A DNA stretch of 64,000 nucleotides. It comes from Vulcanisaeta sp. JCM 16159. Its GTDB lineage: Archaea; Thermoproteota; Thermoprotei; Thermoproteales; Thermocladiaceae. Below, in pieces: positions 52,104 to 60,848 of the stretch; positions within the stretch are counted from its first letter, which is position 1, and each line of letters begins with the position of its first letter. Made by a program: the position numbers and the translations under genes. The notes under the pieces were generated by a model. The model made no database searches. It was not told the origin of the DNA and saw nothing but the letters and a program-made list of their open reading frames with translations. The stretch is from positions 62,001-126,000 of the forward strand of contig NZ_BBDN01000007.1 of assembly GCF_001316265.1 (NCBI RefSeq), in the 5' to 3' direction.

Positions 52104-54498
52104 ATGGGCTGGGCAGAGCTGTTGCAGGACTTGGTTAAGGAGGGGTTATCCTCAAACCATAGGAGGCTCGTGGTCCTTGTAGGTACTGATGAGGAAAAAC
52201 TCGCCAAGTATGCCGCTGAGGTCCTCAGGGTATTTTCATCAATTGTTAAGGAGCCGCATGGACTGTACATGTATCAACCCGAGTATCCCGATGCGCAGAG
52301 AAGGATGGGTAAATTTAAGGAGCTTGTTAAGGGGGTTTCCGCAAGTATTGATTATAAGCCGTACAAGGATACGGATAAGCTCCTCGGTACTACTGTCGAC
52401 TTCGCAATACTGGACTTAATGAATGACCTAAAGCCAAATGATGTTGGTAGGCTGGGGGGTATTGTTAGGGGTGGCGGTATTTACATATTCATGGTACCAC
52501 CGTTGGATGAGTGGGTTAAGCAATTAACGAAGTTTCAGCAAAGCCTATTGGTTCCCCAGTACAGGCCTGAGGATGTTAGGCATTTCCTGAAGGTTAGGTT
52601 TTGGAATAAGTTAATGGGTATGGGTAAGGCGTTAATAATCAATGTTAATAATGATGAGGTAATCAAGGAACCTGTCATTGGTGATTCACAGCCCTGGAAG
52701 CCAAGGGAGGTAGTAATGCCAGAGAGGATTAGGTTTTCGAAGGCCATTTACGAATTGGCTAAGACCCAGGACCAGGTCGAGGCCCTTAAAGCAATGGAGG
52801 TACTGCTGGAGAGGCCTCCGAGGGGTAAGAAGGTGGATGTTGTGTTGATAGCGGATAGGGGTAGGGGTAAGTCGGCAATCATTGGCTTGGCGCTGGCGGC
52901 CCTTGCTCATAGGCTTAGGAAGGTTAAGGGTAGGGCCAGGTTCGCAGTCACGGCAATGAACCCGAGCAATGTATCAACACTGATGGAGTTCGTGATAAAG
53001 GGCCTTAAGGCGTTGAATTACGATGTAGACGTGAGTTACTGGGGTGGTGATGTTGTTTCGGTTAAGGTTGGCATCTCCATCTTCATAGATTATGTGAAGC
53101 CGTACGACATGCTTAGTGAGGAGGGTAGGGATATCGTCGTAGTTGATGAGGCTGCGATGATACCGCTCCCAGTGCTTTATGGAATACATGAGAGATTTGG
53201 CAGGGTTATATATGCATCCACAATACATGGTTATGAAGGTGCCGGTAGAGGCTTCAGCCTTAGGTTTCTTAAGTACTTGCATGAGGATAAGAACACAAGG
53301 GTCATTGAGTATGAGCTTAAGGAGCCAATTAGGTATGCACCCAATGACCCAGTGGAGCAGTGGCTGTTTGATACTTTATTGCTTGATGCTGAACCTGCGA
53401 AGATAACCGAGGAGGATTATGAATTAATAAATAGACACGAGTTTAATTACTTGATTCCAGATCTTAAGGAGTTCTTTCTATTAAGTGAGGATAGGTTAAG
53501 GCAATTCTTTGGTATTTATGTTCAGGCCCACTATAGGAATGAACCGATGACTTGGGAATGATGATGGACGCGCCCCATCACTTCATAAGGGCCTTAACAC
53601 TTGGTAATGGTAAGATCGTGGTATCCGTGGAGTTGGCCGAGGAGGGTGGTATAAGCGATGAGTTAATTGACATGGTTGTGAGGGGGCTAAAATTGCCTGG
53701 AAATATAATACCGGACAGACTAATTAAGTATTGGGGGCTCACGGACTTTGCTAAGTTAAGGGGTTGGAGAATTATTAGGATTGCGACGCACCCTGAGCTT
53801 CAGGACAGGGGCCTTGGTACTGAGATGCTTAGGAGGATTGAGGAGGAGGCCAGGGAAAAGGGCATTGATTGGGTTGGTGTTGGTTTTGGCGTCAACGCTA
53901 AGCTACTGAATTTCTGGATTAGGAATGGTTACATGCCAGTACACATAAGTCCCGAGAGGAATCCAATAAGCGGTGAGTATAGTGTATTGCTTGTTAAGCC
54001 AATAAGTGAGAAGCCAGAGACGCGGCCATCTATGCAAACAAGGAGTTTAGGCTAAGACTACTTAATTCATTGCAGGGTCCGTTCCATGACATGGAACCTG
54101 ACGTTGTTAGAATGCTATTGACCGATTGGGGCCAAGCCCTGGACCCCAATTATAGTCCTAGACTCACTGAGGCTCAGGCAAGGCGCTTAATCGCGTACTC
54201 ATGGGGTCCAATGACCTATGAGAATACGGCAGATGCAATAACAGAGCTTGTTAAGACGTACTACCTTAGGAAGGGCATTGATAATATCGCATTGCCGCAA
54301 TACTATGAGGAGACCTTGATTTGTAAGGTGTTACAGGCAAGACCTTGGAGGGAATCAGCTAAGGTTCTTGGTATCAGGAAGTCAACGCTTATGCTCATGC
54401 TCAGAGAGGTAGTTAAAGTTCTCATCCAATACTATGTAAAGTATATCGAAATACCAGAATATATGATAAGTGTTACTAAATCGCAAAAAAAGAGGTAA
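52104..54498 (+). CDS. tmcA: tRNA(Met) cytidine acetyltransferase TmcA, two frameshifts
   Basis: TmcA makes N4-acetylcytidine in tRNA and rRNA, which stabilises RNA in hyperthermophiles. The first segment has an N-terminal domain, a helicase-like ATPase with Walker A DRGRGKSAIIGLALAAL, DEAAMIPLPVL (Walker B) and RGFSLRFLKYL. The frame changes near 53555, then a GNAT domain follows (IIRIATHPELQDRGLGTEMLRRIEEEA, acetyl-CoA loop RxxGxG as QDRGLG; WVGVGFGVNAKLLNFWIRNGYMPVHISP). After a second change near 54040 the C-terminal tRNA-binding tail continues KEFRLRLLNSLQGPFHDMEP. Rebuilt length of about 798 aa matches the family. Confidence 0.93.
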
Positions 54499-54547: not shown

Positions 54548-54774
54548 ATGGCTAAAAATGGTAAGAGAAGAATCGTGATCGAGGTGGATGAGCATCAATA
54601 CGAAGAGTTAAAAAGGCTCAAGCAAGCATCTCATTCAAAGAATTGGGCTGATCTGCTCATTAAGTGCTTGATAATTCATTAATTATAGCTGAGATAATGG
54701 CTATTCATAATGATATTAAGGATATAAATAGGGCCATAAATGAAATCTCTAGATTAATTAGGGAAGAGACGTAA
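54548..54774 (+). CDS. Small ribbon-helix-helix-like protein with helical tail, one frameshift
   Basis: From an ATG at 54548, with a TATA-like GCTTTAAAATTA 26 bases upstream, the frame gives MAKNGKRRIVIEVDEHQYEE and SKNWADLLIKCL, a basic strand followed by two helices as in CopG/RHH DNA-binding proteins. It stops at about 54680, but the next frame continues LIIAEIMAIHNDIKDINRAI and SRLIREET to the TAA at 54772-54774. About 75 aa rebuilt. It directly precedes the small-protein operon and may regulate it. Confidence 0.55.
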
Positions 54775-54848
54775 CAGCGCGTCTCATGTATACCCAATGT
54801 TATTCGCACAAGTAAAGAATAAATATAGCTTAATTAATGAGAATCTGA

Positions 54849-55244
54849 ATGTTAGTGCTATTATTTAATACGATTGAGGATGCCATAAACAAATTGAGCA
54901 TCATTAAAGACCAATTATTAAACCTGAGGGAACACTATGGATTAATTAAGGAGAGAATGAAGGAAAACGCCGAAACTGAGGAGAGACTTGTAAGGCTTGG
55001 TTTTCAGCCATCCCACCGTGTAATAACGGTCCAGGCCATACCCCAGATTATAAATATACACATAATGCCTCACTCAGCATGGCTATTAAATAAGTTAGGT
55101 GCAATAGAGAATAATATTAATTACGTTATAAATGAAATTGAAAAGATAAGCAATTATTTAAATAGAATTAAAGATAGAAATGCATCTATTATGATAATAA
55201 TAGATTATACAAATAAGAAGACGAGGTTGGTGATAATGCCATGA
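54849..55244 (+). CDS. Small alpha/beta protein P1 of the secretion-ATPase locus
   Basis: 131 aa from an ATG with a TATA-like AGAATAAATATAGC 26 bases upstream, the first gene of a four-gene operon. Layout: strand MLVLLF, long helix (about 8-42), a strand pair around an IP turn (VITVQAIPQIINIHIMPHS, about 56-75), a second long helix (about 76-108) and a terminal strand pair NASIMIIIDYTNKKTRLVIM. The same layout recurs in the next genes and in the C-terminal domain of the convergent membrane protein. No known family is recognised. Its stop overlaps the next start (ATGA). Confidence 0.65.
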   Translation: MLVLLFNTIEDAINKLSIIKDQLLNLREHYGLIKERMKENAETEERLVRLGFQPSHRVITVQAIPQIINIHIMPHSAWLLNKLGAIENNINYVINEIEKISNYLNRIKDRNASIMIIIDYTNKKTRLVIMP

Positions 55245-55631
55245 GCACCAACGTAGACATAAGCATAGAAATCGATGAACTATACAAGAGAGTACTGGAG
55301 AATAAGAAGAGAGTTACGGAATACGTTAAGGGCCTCTATGAAGTATATAGCAAGATCACCGGCATTGTAGACCTACCGGTGAAAAGCGAAAAAAATACTT
55401 ATCGACATACCTAACTCAATTCCAATAATAATATATAAGAGACCATCGAGGGAGGCCTATAGGGAATTGTTCTCGAGAGCTATACAACTCCTTAAGCTGG
55501 AATATGCAGTTTACGAGATCCTTGAGGGTAGGCTAAGCAAGCTTAAGGATCACGGTCTTAAAGCCATGGTTAGGTACTTCGCTGATGTACCATCTCTGGT
55601 GGTGATCGACCTTGATAGTGCTAAGAAGTGA
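55241..55631 (+). CDS. Small alpha/beta protein P2 of the secretion-ATPase locus, one frameshift
   Basis: About 130 aa rebuilt. Helix 1 (IDELYKRVLENKKRVTEYVKGL), strand pair KKILIDIPNSIPIIIYKRP with a YKRP turn, helix 2 (REAYRELFSRAIQLLKLEYAV onward) and terminal strand VPSLVVIDLDSAKK. The frame breaks at a run of seven A residues near 55395; six A residues restore the reading. Its IIIYKRP-x-REAYRELF segment resembles LVVYVRPEEIANELM in the membrane protein at 56663 and IEVIYV...GYKDIIRDAI in the next gene. The stop lies inside the next gene. Confidence 0.6.
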
Positions 55632-56277
55632 TAAACTAAAGAACACGATCCTAGATCTTGGTAGTAGGCTTAATGAAATACTGCAAGTTCTCAATGAGAT
55701 GTATGCAATCAATCTTGATAACGAGACTGTGAGCAAATTAATAAGGGAATTAAGGAGTAAGTCATCTTCGGCCAGGTATACTAAGGGTGGCACGAATGTA
55801 ACATCTAAGGTGGGTGATATTGAGGTTATTTACGTGTTAACGGCCAGTGGTTATAAGGATATAATTAGGGACGCTATTAATTATTACACAAACGTACTCA
55901 TGGCTATTAAGCAGATTACGGAATTTAGCGAAAAACTCGGTATAGGCGATAATTATACGGTTATTATTGATGGTTCATCGATAGACGTAATCATAGGTTA
56001 CTCATTACCTGATGTGTCAGATTTACCATTATTAACTCTATCGAGCATTAAGGAGATGGCGGAAATACCCAGCGTTTTGGTTGGCATTACTGGCTTGACT
56101 GCCGATGAGTTGGCTAAGGTAATGGTGACTATTGATAACTTGATCTCCTCAATGAGCACTGGCTCAAATAGCTTTGAAACAGTTGTGAAAATAAGTGATA
56201 TAAATTACCCAGAACCCTTTAAGAAAATTGAGGAATTGATTGGTGGTGCGCATGATCATCGAGATCAAGAGATATAA
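55618..56277 (+). CDS. Alpha/beta protein P3 of the secretion-ATPase locus
   Basis: About 219 aa from GTG at 55618 (a TTG two codons earlier is possible), overlapping P2 by 14 bases. Helix 1 (LKNTILDLGSRLNEILQVLNEM and on), strand GDIEVIYVLTA, helix 2 (GYKDIIRDAINYYTNVLMAI), then the strand pair NYTVIIDGSSIDVIIGY, that is the same pattern as its neighbours. A C-terminal extension of about 75 residues (SSIKEMAEIPSVLVGITGL to the end) is unique. The 3' end overlaps P4 by 26 bases. No known family is recognised. Confidence 0.6.
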   Translation: MLRSDKLKNTILDLGSRLNEILQVLNEMYAINLDNETVSKLIRELRSKSSSARYTKGGTNVTSKVGDIEVIYVLTASGYKDIIRDAINYYTNVLMAIKQITEFSEKLGIGDNYTVIIDGSSIDVIIGYSLPDVSDLPLLTLSSIKEMAEIPSVLVGITGLTADELAKVMVTIDNLISSMSTGSNSFETVVKISDINYPEPFKKIEELIGGAHDHRDQEI

Positions 56278-56660
56278 CTCGTTAAATGAGATGATTCAAT
56301 CCCTAAAGAACGAACTAAGTAATTCATATAGGTTCATGTACATGCTTAAGCAGAATTGGAACGAGATACTAGGTACTGAAAGTAGCACTACATTGGCAAG
56401 CGAAATATCAGAAAATATTAGATTTATTGATGGTTCCTCAGAGGTGTTTTCCGTGAGAATTGTCTATAAGCCGGGCACCAATACGAGAAATAATGTGATT
56501 AATGATGTTGCCGGATATATGCAGAAAAAAATCAGCAATTATAAAGTCGGTAATCGATAGACTCGAGTCACTCTACATTGATAAGGATCGCCCAATAATT
56601 GCATTACTTGTTGATTCAATACCAATAATGATAATTATGCAGGGTGAGGAGGGTGCCTAA
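56252..56660 (+). CDS. Small alpha/beta protein P4 of the secretion-ATPase locus, one frameshift
   Basis: About 136 aa rebuilt. Strand MIIEIKRY, helix 1 (SLNEMIQSLKNELSNSYRF onward), strand pair FIDGSSEVFSVRIVYKPGT, helix 2 and a terminal strand pair RPIIALLVDSIPIMIIMQG. The frame breaks at a run of seven A residues near 56530; the rebuilt reading continues SAIIKSVIDRLESLYIDKD. The N-terminal 35 residues closely parallel those of P5 on the other strand. Its stop at 56660 is two bases from the convergent membrane protein stop. Confidence 0.6.
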
Positions 56661-56662
56661 TT

Positions 56663-57510
56663 TTACCTATTGATCATTATAAGCTTCCTTGGTACTCCAT
56701 CAACGTATATAACCAATACCTGCGAATTACCCATGTATTGAGAAATATCATTATCATGCACTAACCTCTCAACTATATTGTTAAACTCATTAACATAGTT
56801 ACTTATTAATTGGGTATCGTTCATTAACTCATTGGCTATCTCCTCCGGCCTTACATAAACTACTAATCCCTCTTCGACAACCTTTGTCTTCTTCTGTTTC
56901 TTAAAGACTGACTCCTCCTTAAGGTTAAACCAAGCATTGCGGCTTTACTCTCATATTGCCTAGCCCTTAATAGGAATGGGACCTCCTTATTCATGCTCTC
57001 TGCAATTCCTTTAATGTCCATGAACCTTCTTGAGATACTTATTATAGCGTCTGTCCAACCATCATAGTACTCAATCCAGCTACCCAATGTCTCATTAGTT
57101 GATGCACCGGATTTTAGCTCATTAATTGTTTCATTAATAAGCCTATCCAAATCCTCGGGTTTAATTTCAGTCCTCTTCTCAACCTTCGGCTTACTAATGA
57201 CGTTACTCGGCCTTTTAATTCCTCTTTGATCCTGCTTTAATCCAAGGAGTGATCGTATATCCACATTCATGTACTTACTTGCTAATATGGATATTCCATA
57301 GCCTATGGCTAAGCCAATTACCGGAAGTAATATGTATTTAATACTAAGGTATTGGTTAATTGAGAAATTAGGTAGTATGTAGGGTATTAGCATCAATATT
57401 GCGTAGATACCAAGGAGCGGTATTATAACCGTTAATGGCGGCCTAATCAAGCCTAGTACAATCATGCCAATCATTATTGCGATTATTAATATGGGTATTG
57501 GTATTATCAT
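56663..57510 (-). CDS. Multi-spanning membrane protein P6 with cytoplasmic domain shared with P1-P5, one frameshift
   Basis: About 282 aa rebuilt. Three to four N-terminal membrane helices (IPIPILIIAIMIGMIVLGLI; LTVIIPLLGIYAILMLIPYI; YILLPVIGLAIGYGISILAS) are followed by a charged linker, a helical bundle (about 115-190), and after a frame change near 56932 a C-terminal unit GLVVYVRPEEIANELM, a helix, then SQVLVIYVDGVPRKLIMIN. That unit matches the second half of the small proteins nearby. It is not a recognisable TadC/GspF protein. Its start overlaps the P5 stop (ATGA), and P5 overlaps the ATPase, so it belongs to the ATPase operon. Confidence 0.65.
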
Positions 57511-57870
57511 GAGCCTTCACCTAAGGTCAATGGTTGCGATAATAAAACCCTGCTTGGTATTCCATTCTCTAATTCGAGTAGTACGATACCCGTATAATTA
57601 CTGTCGTTGAATATGTTCTTTATTTCCTCAAGTAGCGTGTTTATGGCTTTGATTCTTATATCGATTTTTTTCGGCTAATCCCCTGATCTCCGTTATTCTT
57701 TCTCTCTTTATTGTGAGACTACCATCCTTATCTATCTCAATTATATCCACAAGTGAATCCTTGCTTAATTCCTCCTCTATTACTTTCTTGGCTATTAATA
57801 ACTTATTCAATTCCTCACTTAAATACTTAACCAGGGAATTAATATCCTTAAACCTGAGCAACGCTCTCAA
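57507..57870 (-). CDS. Small alpha/beta protein P5 in the ATPase operon, one frameshift
   Basis: About 121 aa rebuilt. Strand MRALLRFKD, helix 1 (INSLVKYLSEELNKLLIAKK onward), strand pair LVDIIEIDKDGSLTIKRE, helix 2 (AINTLLEEIKNIFND) and terminal strand pair YTGIVLLELENGIPSRVLLSQ. The frame breaks at seven A residues near 57662; with six it reads AEKIDIRIKAINTL. The start overlaps the ATPase end by 23 bases and the stop overlaps P6 by four. It is the minus-strand counterpart of P1-P4. Confidence 0.62.
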
Positions 57871-59380
57871 CCTCGCTCACCTTGCCGAAGACATGGTTAA
57901 GTACTAAGTCTGGATTCGTATAGTATGCCTGCACGTACATTGAAACATCCTCGAAGTTATACACCTCGTTCTTCACCATCCAATTAACAATCTTAGCTCT
58001 AGTCTCTATCTCCCTGAGTAGTTCGTCGACGTCCTTACCAGTCATGTCACTTATCTGCCTAATTAAGACGCTCTTGTCCACGTATGACTCGTGAGTATCA
58101 GTTCTCGGGTTCCATCTGAACACTGTGTTAAACCTAATCTTGTCACCATCCATGTAAACCTCACCAACCTCAGTAACCCTCCTCGTTAACCTACCACCGA
58201 TCTTAACCCTCTTAATCATGACGAATATGTTCATGGCGGGTATGTAGGCCGGTGGTATGTTCATTGGTGGCTCATGAGCTATTAACGGCAGCCTCAAAGG
58301 ACTCCGCGTGCATTGTCGATATGCCACTGTGGCCTGTGTTCACGGCTTGGAACAATACGTAGGCCTCCTCACCCCTGATCTCACCAACGATTAGGTAATC
58401 AGGCCTCATTCTAAGTGTTGCCTTAACCAAGTCAAATAGCGTGATCTCATTTATCTTCTCAGCGCCGTAACTCTGCCTGGTGACGAGTCTGACCCAATTC
58501 TTATGAGGCAGGTTTATCTCTGGGACCTCCTCAACGGTTATTATCTTCATGTGGGGCTTAATGAATGTTGCCATGGCATTGAGGAAACTCGTCTTGCCGG
58601 CGCCCGTGACGCCAAGCACCAGGAATGACCTACCATTATCAAGCATTACCCAGAAGTAACCAGCAATCTCGGCACTAATGTTACCGTACCTAACCAGCTC
58701 CGTGAACGTTAGCGGATTCTTCCTAAACTTCCTTATCGTGAATGTTGAACCACCTGGCGAGACCTCCCTCCTATATGTGACGGCTATTCTAGAACCATCA
58801 GGCAGCTGGGCATCAACTATTGGCGTCGCTACTGAAACGTGCCTACCGGACATGTGTATTAATTTAACGACTAAGTCATCAAGGCTTGGTCGGTCATTGG
58901 CACAATGTTTGTTGGTATGGACTCATACTTCCTATGAAATACATAGACTGGCCTGCCGACGCCGTCGCATGATATATCCTCAATATTCTCATCCCTCATT
59001 AAGGCATCTATTGGTCCATAACCGAGCAAGTCCCTCTCCATGTAGTATAGAAACTTGGCAAAGGATGATGACTGTACATTCCTGAAGAGTCTCCTATACC
59101 TACCAACAATCTTCTTCAGTTCATTGAGAAGGTAATTCTTAACATCGCCCATCTTCATTAAATCCTCAGGCGGTGGTAATTCGAGCATGACGATCCTCAC
59201 CAACTCCTTGTATACCTGCTGTTCAATTGAATCAAGTGTTATCTCCTCTAGGTAGTACATAATGTCTCCGGTCCTTTCGTCTTGAATTATTGTGGCATAT
59301 GCGAACGGTTCGTATAATGAGTACCTCTCCAGTTCCTTGAATTGTCCTACTGGCTTTATTAACTGAAAGTCTAAACTCAT
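57848..59380 (-). CDS. Type II/IV secretion-system ATPase (GspE/TadA/ArlI-like), two frameshifts
   Basis: About 511 aa rebuilt, the length of archaeal pilus and archaellum ATPases. The N-terminal domain ends with RDLLGYGPIDALMRDENIEDISC. The frame changes near 58890, then RRVVSPGGSTFTIRKF-like strands lead to Walker A GVTGAGKTSFLNA, Asp box ITVEEVPEINLPH, Walker B LIVGEIRGEEAYVLFQA and His box GHSGISTMHAES. The frame changes again near 58300 and the C-terminal domain continues RLPLIAHEPPMNIPPAYI. It powers assembly or export across the membrane. The operon lacks an obvious TadC; P5 and P6 follow with overlapping ends. Confidence 0.9.
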
Positions 59381-59480: not shown

Positions 59481-60848
59481 ATGGTGATGGTAATTAATAA
59501 ATGGGTAATATTTGCTATATCTCTAATGATGATATTAATATTAGTCGCATTTATTTCCTACGCAAACACTATTTATGGGCCAGCACCAACACCCATGGTT
59601 TATACAACGTACGTAATAACCATGAACCTAACAGACTCAAGACCATCGATACAGTTTCTCAATGCAATCCTAAATAATTACCCACTAACCTACCGTGAGG
59701 ACTCATTAATAACTAATACAACACCTGTTTGGAAGGTCACAGCAAATAGGGAGTTCACGCTATACATAATTAATGCCTCAGTGACCACTAACCAACAGGC
59801 AATTTTACTCAATACAACGGCAATAACCAATAACACCGGTGGTATCTCATGGACGCTGAAAATTCCCTCATACCTAGTATATCCACAATCCGTATACGCC
59901 AACTGGGATGTATTAATAACTGAGGACTTAAACGGGGTGAAATACGTAGTCTTCGCCTTCGAGACAGGTAATGAGAGTCTTGCGCAGGTATTAAGTGGGT
60001 TAAGTACGGTTGGTGGTTACCTAGTTGCCCTCAATGGTGAGCCGTATTACCTATGGAATTACTACTATGGATATAACCCAGCCACGGACAGCGTCGGTAA
60101 GTACTATGAAGTTAGCTTGCCTGGATTAAGTATATTCATGATGTGGGTTGGCCAGGGAGAGAATGCGAGTTCATGGCCAAGTGCAGGATTTCAGGAGGTT
60201 CTCCAGATCCTTAGTTATTCATTTAGTGAGTATGTAAATTCATCATTGATTATATACTCGACCCTCAGCCCTAACATAACCATTGGTGAAATCACCAATT
60301 ATGGATATACCGTATATCAAAGGCCAAGGCTTGTGCCATTTGGACCCATTATTTACGTATCGCCAATAGTATTACTACCAAATGGCACATTAATAAATCC
60401 AACCTGCATACCAAATACCTATTACCTATTGCAGGTTAATTACGTTACACAAGGTGGTTATTCAATCCCTATCTATGAAACAAAGAACTACCCAATGGGA
60501 CTATACCTACTCAACGAATCGCTACTCTTCGGAGGTTACTTACAGGCGTATGACTTTTTCAACAGGTCAGTGATACCAGTGACCCCAGTACAGTATTTAT
60601 CACCCATTTATCAACCACGGATGAGCACAGTTTCATGGTGTAAATTACAGGTATTTCAAGTGCCTGGTAATGGCGATATACTAAGTAATCAGACAATTAA
60701 TGGCGTCATTAATGGTAATGATACAATAACCGTAAATAATAACATAGATATTAATAAAGTGAATGCTCAAAACACGATCTACATACTTAATGTACTTTCG
60801 CATGTCATGAATGGCTTCCTCAAGCTACTAAGATTAATTGTGAGATAA
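59481..60848 (+). CDS. Predicted surface glycoprotein next to the secretion ATPase
   Basis: This 455-aa protein starts with a signal or membrane anchor (INKWVIFAISLMMILILVAFISYA), then a long beta-rich region dominated by Tyr, Asn, Thr, Ser, Pro and Val, with more than ten Asn-x-Ser/Thr sites, and a C-terminal helical stretch (NAQNTIYILNVLSHVMNGFLKLLRLI) after an Asn/Asp-rich repeat-like segment (NGVINGNDTITVNNNID). No enzyme motif is seen. It diverges from the ATPase with 100 bases between, so the two may be co-regulated and this could be the exported or assembled component. Confidence 0.65.
   Translation: MVMVINKWVIFAISLMMILILVAFISYANTIYGPAPTPMVYTTYVITMNLTDSRPSIQFLNAILNNYPLTYREDSLITNTTPVWKVTANREFTLYIINASVTTNQQAILLNTTAITNNTGGISWTLKIPSYLVYPQSVYANWDVLITEDLNGVKYVVFAFETGNESLAQVLSGLSTVGGYLVALNGEPYYLWNYYYGYNPATDSVGKYYEVSLPGLSIFMMWVGQGENASSWPSAGFQEVLQILSYSFSEYVNSSLIIYSTLSPNITIGEITNYGYTVYQRPRLVPFGPIIYVSPIVLLPNGTLINPTCIPNTYYLLQVNYVTQGGYSIPIYETKNYPMGLYLLNESLLFGGYLQAYDFFNRSVIPVTPVQYLSPIYQPRMSTVSWCKLQVFQVPGNGDILSNQTINGVINGNDTITVNNNIDINKVNAQNTIYILNVLSHVMNGFLKLLRLIVR

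Follow-up and report, generated by a model that had tools for sequence, protein, structure and literature searches.

The DNA analyzed here is a window of 64,000 nucleotides from Vulcanisaeta sp. JCM 16159 (contig NZ_BBDN01000007.1, positions 62,001 to 126,000 of the forward strand), and all positions below refer to this window. The piece under study, 54548–57870, encodes five small proteins, referred to in the following as P1–P5, and a sixth protein, P6, next to the gene for a secretion ATPase. The first-pass annotation of this piece had proposed, by eye, that P1–P5 form a local family of paralogs with one shared layout, had named the C-terminal domain of P6 for comparison, and knew of no named family with this pattern. 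From left to right, the genes are TmcA, an RHH-like gene, P1, P2, P3 and P4 on the plus strand, P6, P5 and the ATPase on the minus strand, and SUB. The nearest named record found is that of V. distributa JCM 11216, in which P1 is identical and P3 is at 97%.

On the plus strand, P1 (54849–55244, 131 aa) starts at ATG 54849 and P2 (55241–55631) at ATG 55241; P2, of 129 aa in relatives, has a frame break near 55390. P3 (55618–56277, 219 aa here) starts at GTG 55618 or TTG 55612 and carries a C-terminal extension. P4 (56252–56660, 135 aa in relatives) starts at ATG 56252, with a frame break near 56530. The minus-strand genes comprise the ATPase (57848–59380, start ATG 59380, in three pieces here), which is of the type II/IV secretion (type IV pilus, T4P) type; P5 (57507–57870, start TTG 57870), of about 120 aa in most relatives and frame-broken here; and P6 (56663–57510, start ATG 57510), also frame-broken, in which three predicted membrane segments and a linker precede a C-terminal family domain located inside the last 95 residues. 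A start-codon check bore out the start positions of P1–P5 assigned in the first pass, together with the overlaps of 4 (P1/P2), 14 (P2/P3) and 26 bases (P3/P4); further overlaps join P5 to P6 (4 bases) and the ATPase to P5 (23 bases). By hydropathy, P6 of the relative locus L018 has the three membrane segments, and no membrane segment was found in P1–P5 of L018 at the threshold used.

The order RHH–P1–P2–P3–P4–P6–P5–ATPase–SUB is common to all 10 loci fetched from the genus, some of them in pieces, and the intact L018 ortholog of the ATPase (511 aa) matches PF00437 (T2SSE) at 1.5e-34, so the placement of the small proteins beside a secretion ATPase held up. Frame breaks in the window affect the RHH-like gene, P2, P4, P5, P6 and the ATPase. 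In the rows kept for the genus, the full-length open reading frames measure 131 aa for P1, 129–132 for P2, 212–221 for P3, 133–141 for P4, 117–122 for P5 and 281–290 for P6; among these rows, P2 and P6 of L026 also have frame breaks. The breaks likely stem from sequence error, since different drafts are broken at different genes. A counterexample is the P5 of L019 (L019:6683-6991), which comes from a one-contig genome, has only 102 aa and an unlike C-terminus, and cannot with certainty be put down to sequence error alone.

To relate the P proteins to each other, ortholog alignments were made for each of them, with copies from a second genus, g4, added, and the profiles were compared pairwise (15 pairs). 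Orthologs below 85% of the query length were dropped, e.g., L026 P1, L019 P5 and the L026 and L027 copies of P3; the frame-broken L026 P2 and P6 were kept in their alignments, L026 P6 lying outside the profile of the C-terminal domain (P6C). Controls were 18 profiles from the same loci, giving 108 comparisons, and reversed profiles, giving 36. Five of the 15 pairs reached P ≤ 0.001: P1–P5 (8.8e-5), P4–P5 (1.1e-4), P4–P6C (1.4e-4), P5–P6C (5.5e-4) and P2–P4 (1e-3 over 112 columns). The best control scored 0.0093 and the best reversed profile 0.002. Because these links beat all 144 control comparisons, a common ancestry of P1, P2, P4, P5 and the P6 C-terminal domain is supported. Eleven of the 15 alignments were in register at the C-terminal hairpin, against about 2 expected, in a count for which the limits of the hairpins were fixed with the alignments already in view and whose pairs are not independent; a shared turn, VDGIP / NNGIP / VNGIP, also falls in register. 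Direct comparison gave 0.32 for P1–P4, and no significant link between P3 and the other five (best 0.0066).

Profile searches of 81 genomes of the class connected the family to a much wider one. The queries were P1 and P5, each pooled with G138, a P1/P5-like protein of genome G026 (from a third family of the order) whose scores are 4.7e-6 against P1 (over 117 columns) and 1.9e-5 against P5, the best of 18 controls being 0.018. Three g2 genomes proved to have P1 homologs (E 1e-9 to 1e-11), and all three g4 genomes P5; g2 is Caldivirga, and the group f2, met below, is Pyrobaculum/Thermoproteus, both labels having been inferred from gene content and tree position. Weak matches led to proteins adjoining UppS in G053 (f7) and G078 (f14); Pfam Prenyltransf was matched by the neighbor of a family protein in L252. 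An alignment of the G053 and G078 proteins gave end-to-end matches to P5 (4.1e-8) and P4 (7.7e-6), with 0.0056 as the best of 24 controls. A pooled profile of these proteins with G138 and P5 (A15) matched 52 of the 81 genomes at 0.01 and recovered P4 and P1 genes as well (E 1e-4 to 0.0024). Many of its matches are a separate gene of about 145 aa, which we call PC; Vulcanisaeta also has a PC gene, away from the P locus.

A PC profile of 27 sequences, in which proteins longer than 160 aa were trimmed to the last 150, matched P4 (2.3e-8), P5 (1.9e-7), P2 (1.6e-4), P6C (2.2e-4), P3 (0.0023) and, weakly, P1 (0.0077), the best of 24 controls reaching 0.014. With a 15-sequence profile, 13 of whose sequences came from outside the class, the values were 6.6e-10 for P4 (over 125 columns), 2.4e-7 for P5, 1.7e-5 for P6C, 3e-5 for P2, 4e-5 for P1 (over 119 columns) and 6.1e-4 for P3 (over 66 columns, in register), and all six P profiles beat the best of 24 controls (0.026). 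P3 is accepted as a member because of its matches to the two PC profiles, which are its only route into the family. The results thus support a shared ancestry of all six through PC, P3 being the least certain, and the family seen by eye in the first pass is upheld, with the P6 domain added to it. Contrary to the first-pass view, it is not just local: a 19-sequence PC profile found a match at 0.001 in 154 of 398 genomes of the phylum, mostly one per genome, in a count for which at most 10 candidates were scored per genome and some matches are weak (E 1e-5 to 1e-3). P1–P5 and the P6 C-terminal domain would accordingly be paralogs of PC, a widespread Thermoproteota protein with no named family and with the putative layout strand, long helix, hairpin, long helix, hairpin.

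No member could be filed under a named family, because searches of Pfam, NCBIfam, PHROGs and the PDB sequences gave no adequate match. In Pfam, the window pieces gave only sub-threshold matches, including FlaC_arch for P1 (E 0.2; 12.5 bits, the cut-off being 27.8), and the same was true of the intact L018 P1–P5, with DUF7198 on P2 as the best (E 0.0044, 16.9 bits against 27), and of a set of six family proteins plus T5, a small protein of the f2 group. P6 had no Pfam match at 0.01. Prefoldin was likewise rejected as the identity of the family (best Pfam score 18.4 bits against 23.2; TIGR00293 15.8 against 53.9). NCBIfam had no model above its cut-off for the family proteins, in PHROGs P1–P6 had no match and a PC protein a single weak one (0.0092), and the best PDB sequence was an ice-binding protein at E 0.02 over 37 positions. 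The earlier view that no named family applies therefore stands, and the Pfam and NCBIfam searches did not distribute the proteins among different known families.

In a tree of 45 ATPases, one group (support 100/100) unites the P-locus ATPase with the one from the g4 genome G014, one of those in G026 and the lone ATPases found in three Caldivirga records. In G026, G138 lies in a type IV pilus operon of contiguous genes: it has T2SSF and a pilin-like gene on one side and a membrane protein on the other, beyond which lie the ATPase ortholog, G251 and more pilin-like genes. One of these last passes the Pfam class III signal cut-off; the first pilin-like gene matches no pilin model. Two other genes of this run were tried as relatives and rejected: G251 (L165:13621-14376), alike by eye, scored 0.29 to P3 and 0.02 to PC, and the membrane protein, G338, scored 0.021 to P6 in the linker and 0.09 to P6C with its C-terminal piece. 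In f2, a T2SSF-like gene, an ATPase, the 70-aa T5 and a membrane protein stand together in all five loci looked at. T5, present in 18 of 19 f2 genomes, directly follows the ATPase, the same position as that of P5, and appears to be arCOG08085, of which we found no other mention in the literature searched. The f2 platform gene is called T2SSF-like from blastp similarity, the L134 copy having no Pfam match at 0.01. Profile comparison gave no support for a relation of T6 to P6 (0.074).

PC genes also occur in pilus loci. Forty were examined, 17 outside the class and 23 inside it, as raw counts without a matched background. Outside the class, an ATPase or T2SSF gene lies within about 5 kb in six loci (L292, L294, L295, L300, L301 and L303), with T2SSF, an ATPase and another PC-like gene directly side by side in L300. 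In five more (L293, L297, L298, L299 and L302), PC directly follows a gene that looks pilin-like by eye. Pfam Pilin_N reaches its cut-off for L297 only and falls below it for L302; the pilin reading of L293, L294, L298 and L299 rests on the N-terminus by eye, Pfam giving no pilin match for the genes of L293, L298 and L299 and no match for that of L303. In L294:5091-6202, L298:5290-6522 and L299:5503-6794, PC is followed by two small proteins, in a run with pilin-like and winged-helix-like genes (by eye); one of the small proteins in L299 has a sub-threshold Roadblock/LC7 match.

A platform protein for the P-locus ATPase is likely to be encoded elsewhere. The G026 T2SSF, beside the ATPase ortholog, resembles a 620-aa Vulcanisaeta T2SSF/TadC protein best (1e-42 along most of the length, compared with 5e-5 for a 514-aa one), and we therefore consider the 620-aa protein the likely partner. 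Among the matches listed for genome G003, an ATPase gene lies no more than about 5 kb from each of the T2SSF genes at 1.73 and 1.92 Mb, and the 620-aa T2SSF at 2.29 Mb has none beside it. This double-T2SSF protein is probably the missing platform. In L129:7282-9950, L130:7410-10422 and L131:6773-9813, a double-T2SSF gene of 610–620 aa adjoins a MinD/ParA-like ATPase gene (by eye), and in L130 and L131 a small predicted membrane protein lies between the two.

Since relatives of the six proteins sit beside pilus genes in some lineages, they are probably unrecognized pilus parts or regulators. On balance, and with modest confidence, we favor the view that the P set arose from PC by expansion in Thermoproteales and supplies cytoplasmic subunits, or an accessory set, to a T4P-type motor.

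Several observations weigh against this view. At the P locus, no T2SSF match and no recognized pilin turned up; SUB there has a hydrophobic N-terminus and no Pfam match. No P-like gene was seen beside the ATPase in three Caldivirga loci, and in g4 the ATPase is not on the contigs that carry P1–P3 and P4. T5 matches weakly (0.013 to P5; to PC 4e-4, over 24 columns). Later search profiles combined G138 with P1, P5 or PC, so these searches do not count as independent of the link that they carry further. Within the class, neither an ATPase nor T2SSF was found near PC in any of the 23 loci, three of which are cut by contig ends, and the PC genes there adjoin those for UppS, CCA-adding enzyme (Pfam) or other proteins. 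AlphaFold2 models were run for P4 and P3. The P4 model (L031 copy, JCM 11216; six sequences) has the order E-H-EE-H-EE at a mean pLDDT of 72, with a strand at 3–8, a helix at 11–40, strands at 49–57 and 63–71, a helix at 79–105 and strands at 115–120 and 123–129; residues 45–71, the middle hairpin, are below 50. A Foldseek search with it gave no PDB match at E 0.001. P3 shows the same order of elements at a pLDDT of 42, too low to be used as evidence, so of the layout proposed for the whole family the P4 part stood and P3 did not add to it.

The main doubt concerns the task of PC. Inside the class, PC genes lie outside pilus loci, so the family's role may be broader, with pili having recruited it. 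A rival explanation is that the family is a general cytoplasmic scaffold or prefoldin-like chaperone with a housekeeping job, that the pilus loci borrowed it, and that the P set serves as a holdase for pilins or surface proteins. Prefoldin subunits do occupy ranks 1 to 3 in the Foldseek search with P4 (E 0.39 to 0.51, top probability 0.69), and Pfam Prefoldin appears below threshold in four of the seven family proteins scanned (E 0.002–0.025). The true prefoldin of these genomes (Pfam 4e-23) was often the top control, at 0.0093 with P1, 0.0025 with the Caldivirga P1-like pair and 0.026 with PC, and inside the class PC has housekeeping genes as neighbors; besides UppS and the CCA-adding enzyme, the neighbors at PC loci include what we take to be succinyl-CoA synthetase with pyrophosphatase. 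Yet these control scores are weaker than nearly all the family scores, no prefoldin model reaches its cut-off for any member, and prefoldin is not known to have the terminal strands predicted for P4. We regard this explanation as unlikely.

It is similarly improbable, in our estimate, that P1–P4 form a separate system, a regulator with four subunits, that faces the ATPase operon by chance. The distribution in other genera fits such a separation: P1–P3 form a run of their own apart from the ATPase in all three g4 genomes, P4 stands apart in both g4 genomes where it was found, and in g2 each of the two loci looked at has a P1-like gene standing by itself. However, P1–P4 appear paralogous to P5 and to the P6 domain, both of which are tied to the ATPase: ATPase, P5 and P6 form one run in all three g4 genomes as in Vulcanisaeta, thus in two genera, and strong P2 and P4 matches among 45 genomes of the order were confined to these same two genera. 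In the g4 loci L123:1657-3938 and L210:8262-10552, the ATPase–P5–P6 operon has as neighbors a further, diverged secretion ATPase and a membrane protein that looks TadC-like by eye. A family tree of 62 sequences, with P3 left out, groups the Vulcanisaeta and g4 copies of P1 (support 99/95), P2 (97/77), P4 (99/95) and P5 (95/91). Because each of the four groups both genera, their duplications look older than the split of Vulcanisaeta and g4; the deep forks of the tree are poorly supported, and the P6 domain of g4, which has a long branch, is wrongly placed. A mere convergence of helix-plus-hairpin proteins is very improbable, for although long helices inflate scores, with reversed profiles reaching 0.002, the family aligns end to end with P down to 6.6e-10, against controls no better than 0.026, and shares the VDGIP / NNGIP / VNGIP turn in register.

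The genes flanking the P locus are conserved as well. TmcA (tRNA-Met cytidine acetyltransferase, 52104–54498, plus strand), the left neighbor, is outside the system; it is in three frames here and a single reading frame of 799–803 aa in genus relatives, with a TmcA_N (Pfam) match of 1.4e-44 in the L019 copy. In three g2 genomes, a P5-like protein of 110–123 aa is encoded directly beside TmcA (L264:4562-4894, minus strand; L262:4983-5354; L263:4321-4692, minus strand). The L264 protein scored 0.0015 against P5 (103 columns; the best of 24 controls reached 0.008) and 2.8e-5 against PC (26 columns), and the tree places it, with a long branch, together with PC; its relation to P5 is only suggestive. 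The RHH/CopG-like gene (54548–54774, plus strand, about 75 aa), labeled by eye and frame-broken here, is kept in all 10 genus loci; its product had no Pfam match at 0.01 and is likely a regulator. SUB (59481–60848, plus strand, about 450 aa), with its N-terminus hydrophobic by hydropathy, is divergent from the ATPase gene in all 10 genus loci; it had no Pfam match at 0.01 and may be a surface or secreted partner.

If the P set belongs to a pilus motor, as we favor, the adjacent ATPase would be the motor and the 620-aa T2SSF/TadC protein most likely its platform. P1–P5 would act in Vulcanisaeta as cytoplasmic accessory subunits, and P6 would anchor one family domain to the membrane by its three segments. 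The six domains could pair by way of helices and edge hairpins and so build, at the motor, a hetero-oligomeric collar or scaffold that would tune or position the ATPase. A bolder proposal, which we offer tentatively as a possibility, is that the PC family is an overlooked structural part of archaeal pilus motors, elaborated in Thermoproteales into a six-member hetero-oligomeric cytoplasmic assembly that has no counterpart in bacteria and is partly anchored to the membrane by P6.

Of about 5000 archaeal T4P gene products, 56% were annotated as hypothetical, and the T4P diversity of hyperthermophiles has been called a major enigma (Makarova et al. 2016, PMC4858521). The present results offer one family for several of the hypothetical archaeal proteins linked to T4P, give PC, widespread in the phylum, a first functional lead, and name concrete genes for testing in culturable Thermoproteota. 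We found no title on P1–P4 or the PC/P family in the literature searched, where one may still exist.

Among known systems, prefoldin resembles the fold predicted for P4 in its two long helices joined by hairpins, and was the first-ranked Foldseek match; it differs in that the P family has extra terminal strands in this prediction and another gene setting, and reaches no curated prefoldin model. The archaellum has several cytoplasmic accessory proteins, FlaC/D/E and FlaH, beside a T4P-type ATPase, a similar arrangement to which we found no sequence relation. In bacteria, PilM/N/O form an alignment complex near the pilus motor, comparable to the scaffold role proposed here; the likeness to this complex, as to FlaCDE/FlaH, would be one of analogy, and no homology is claimed. 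The archaeal T4P of Thermoproteales subclades 4A and 4E offers a likeness in gene content. In the portion of the published account available, there is no mention of P1–P4, of PC, of the P6 domain or of any homology between such proteins, and the subclade 4A ATPase of Vulcanisaeta and Caldivirga is described as adjoining "a cytoplasmic and membrane protein" (Makarova, Koonin, Albers 2016, PMC4858521). This combination of an ATPase with one cytoplasmic and one membrane protein fits P5 and P6, which, as far as that portion describes them, are very likely the published pair.

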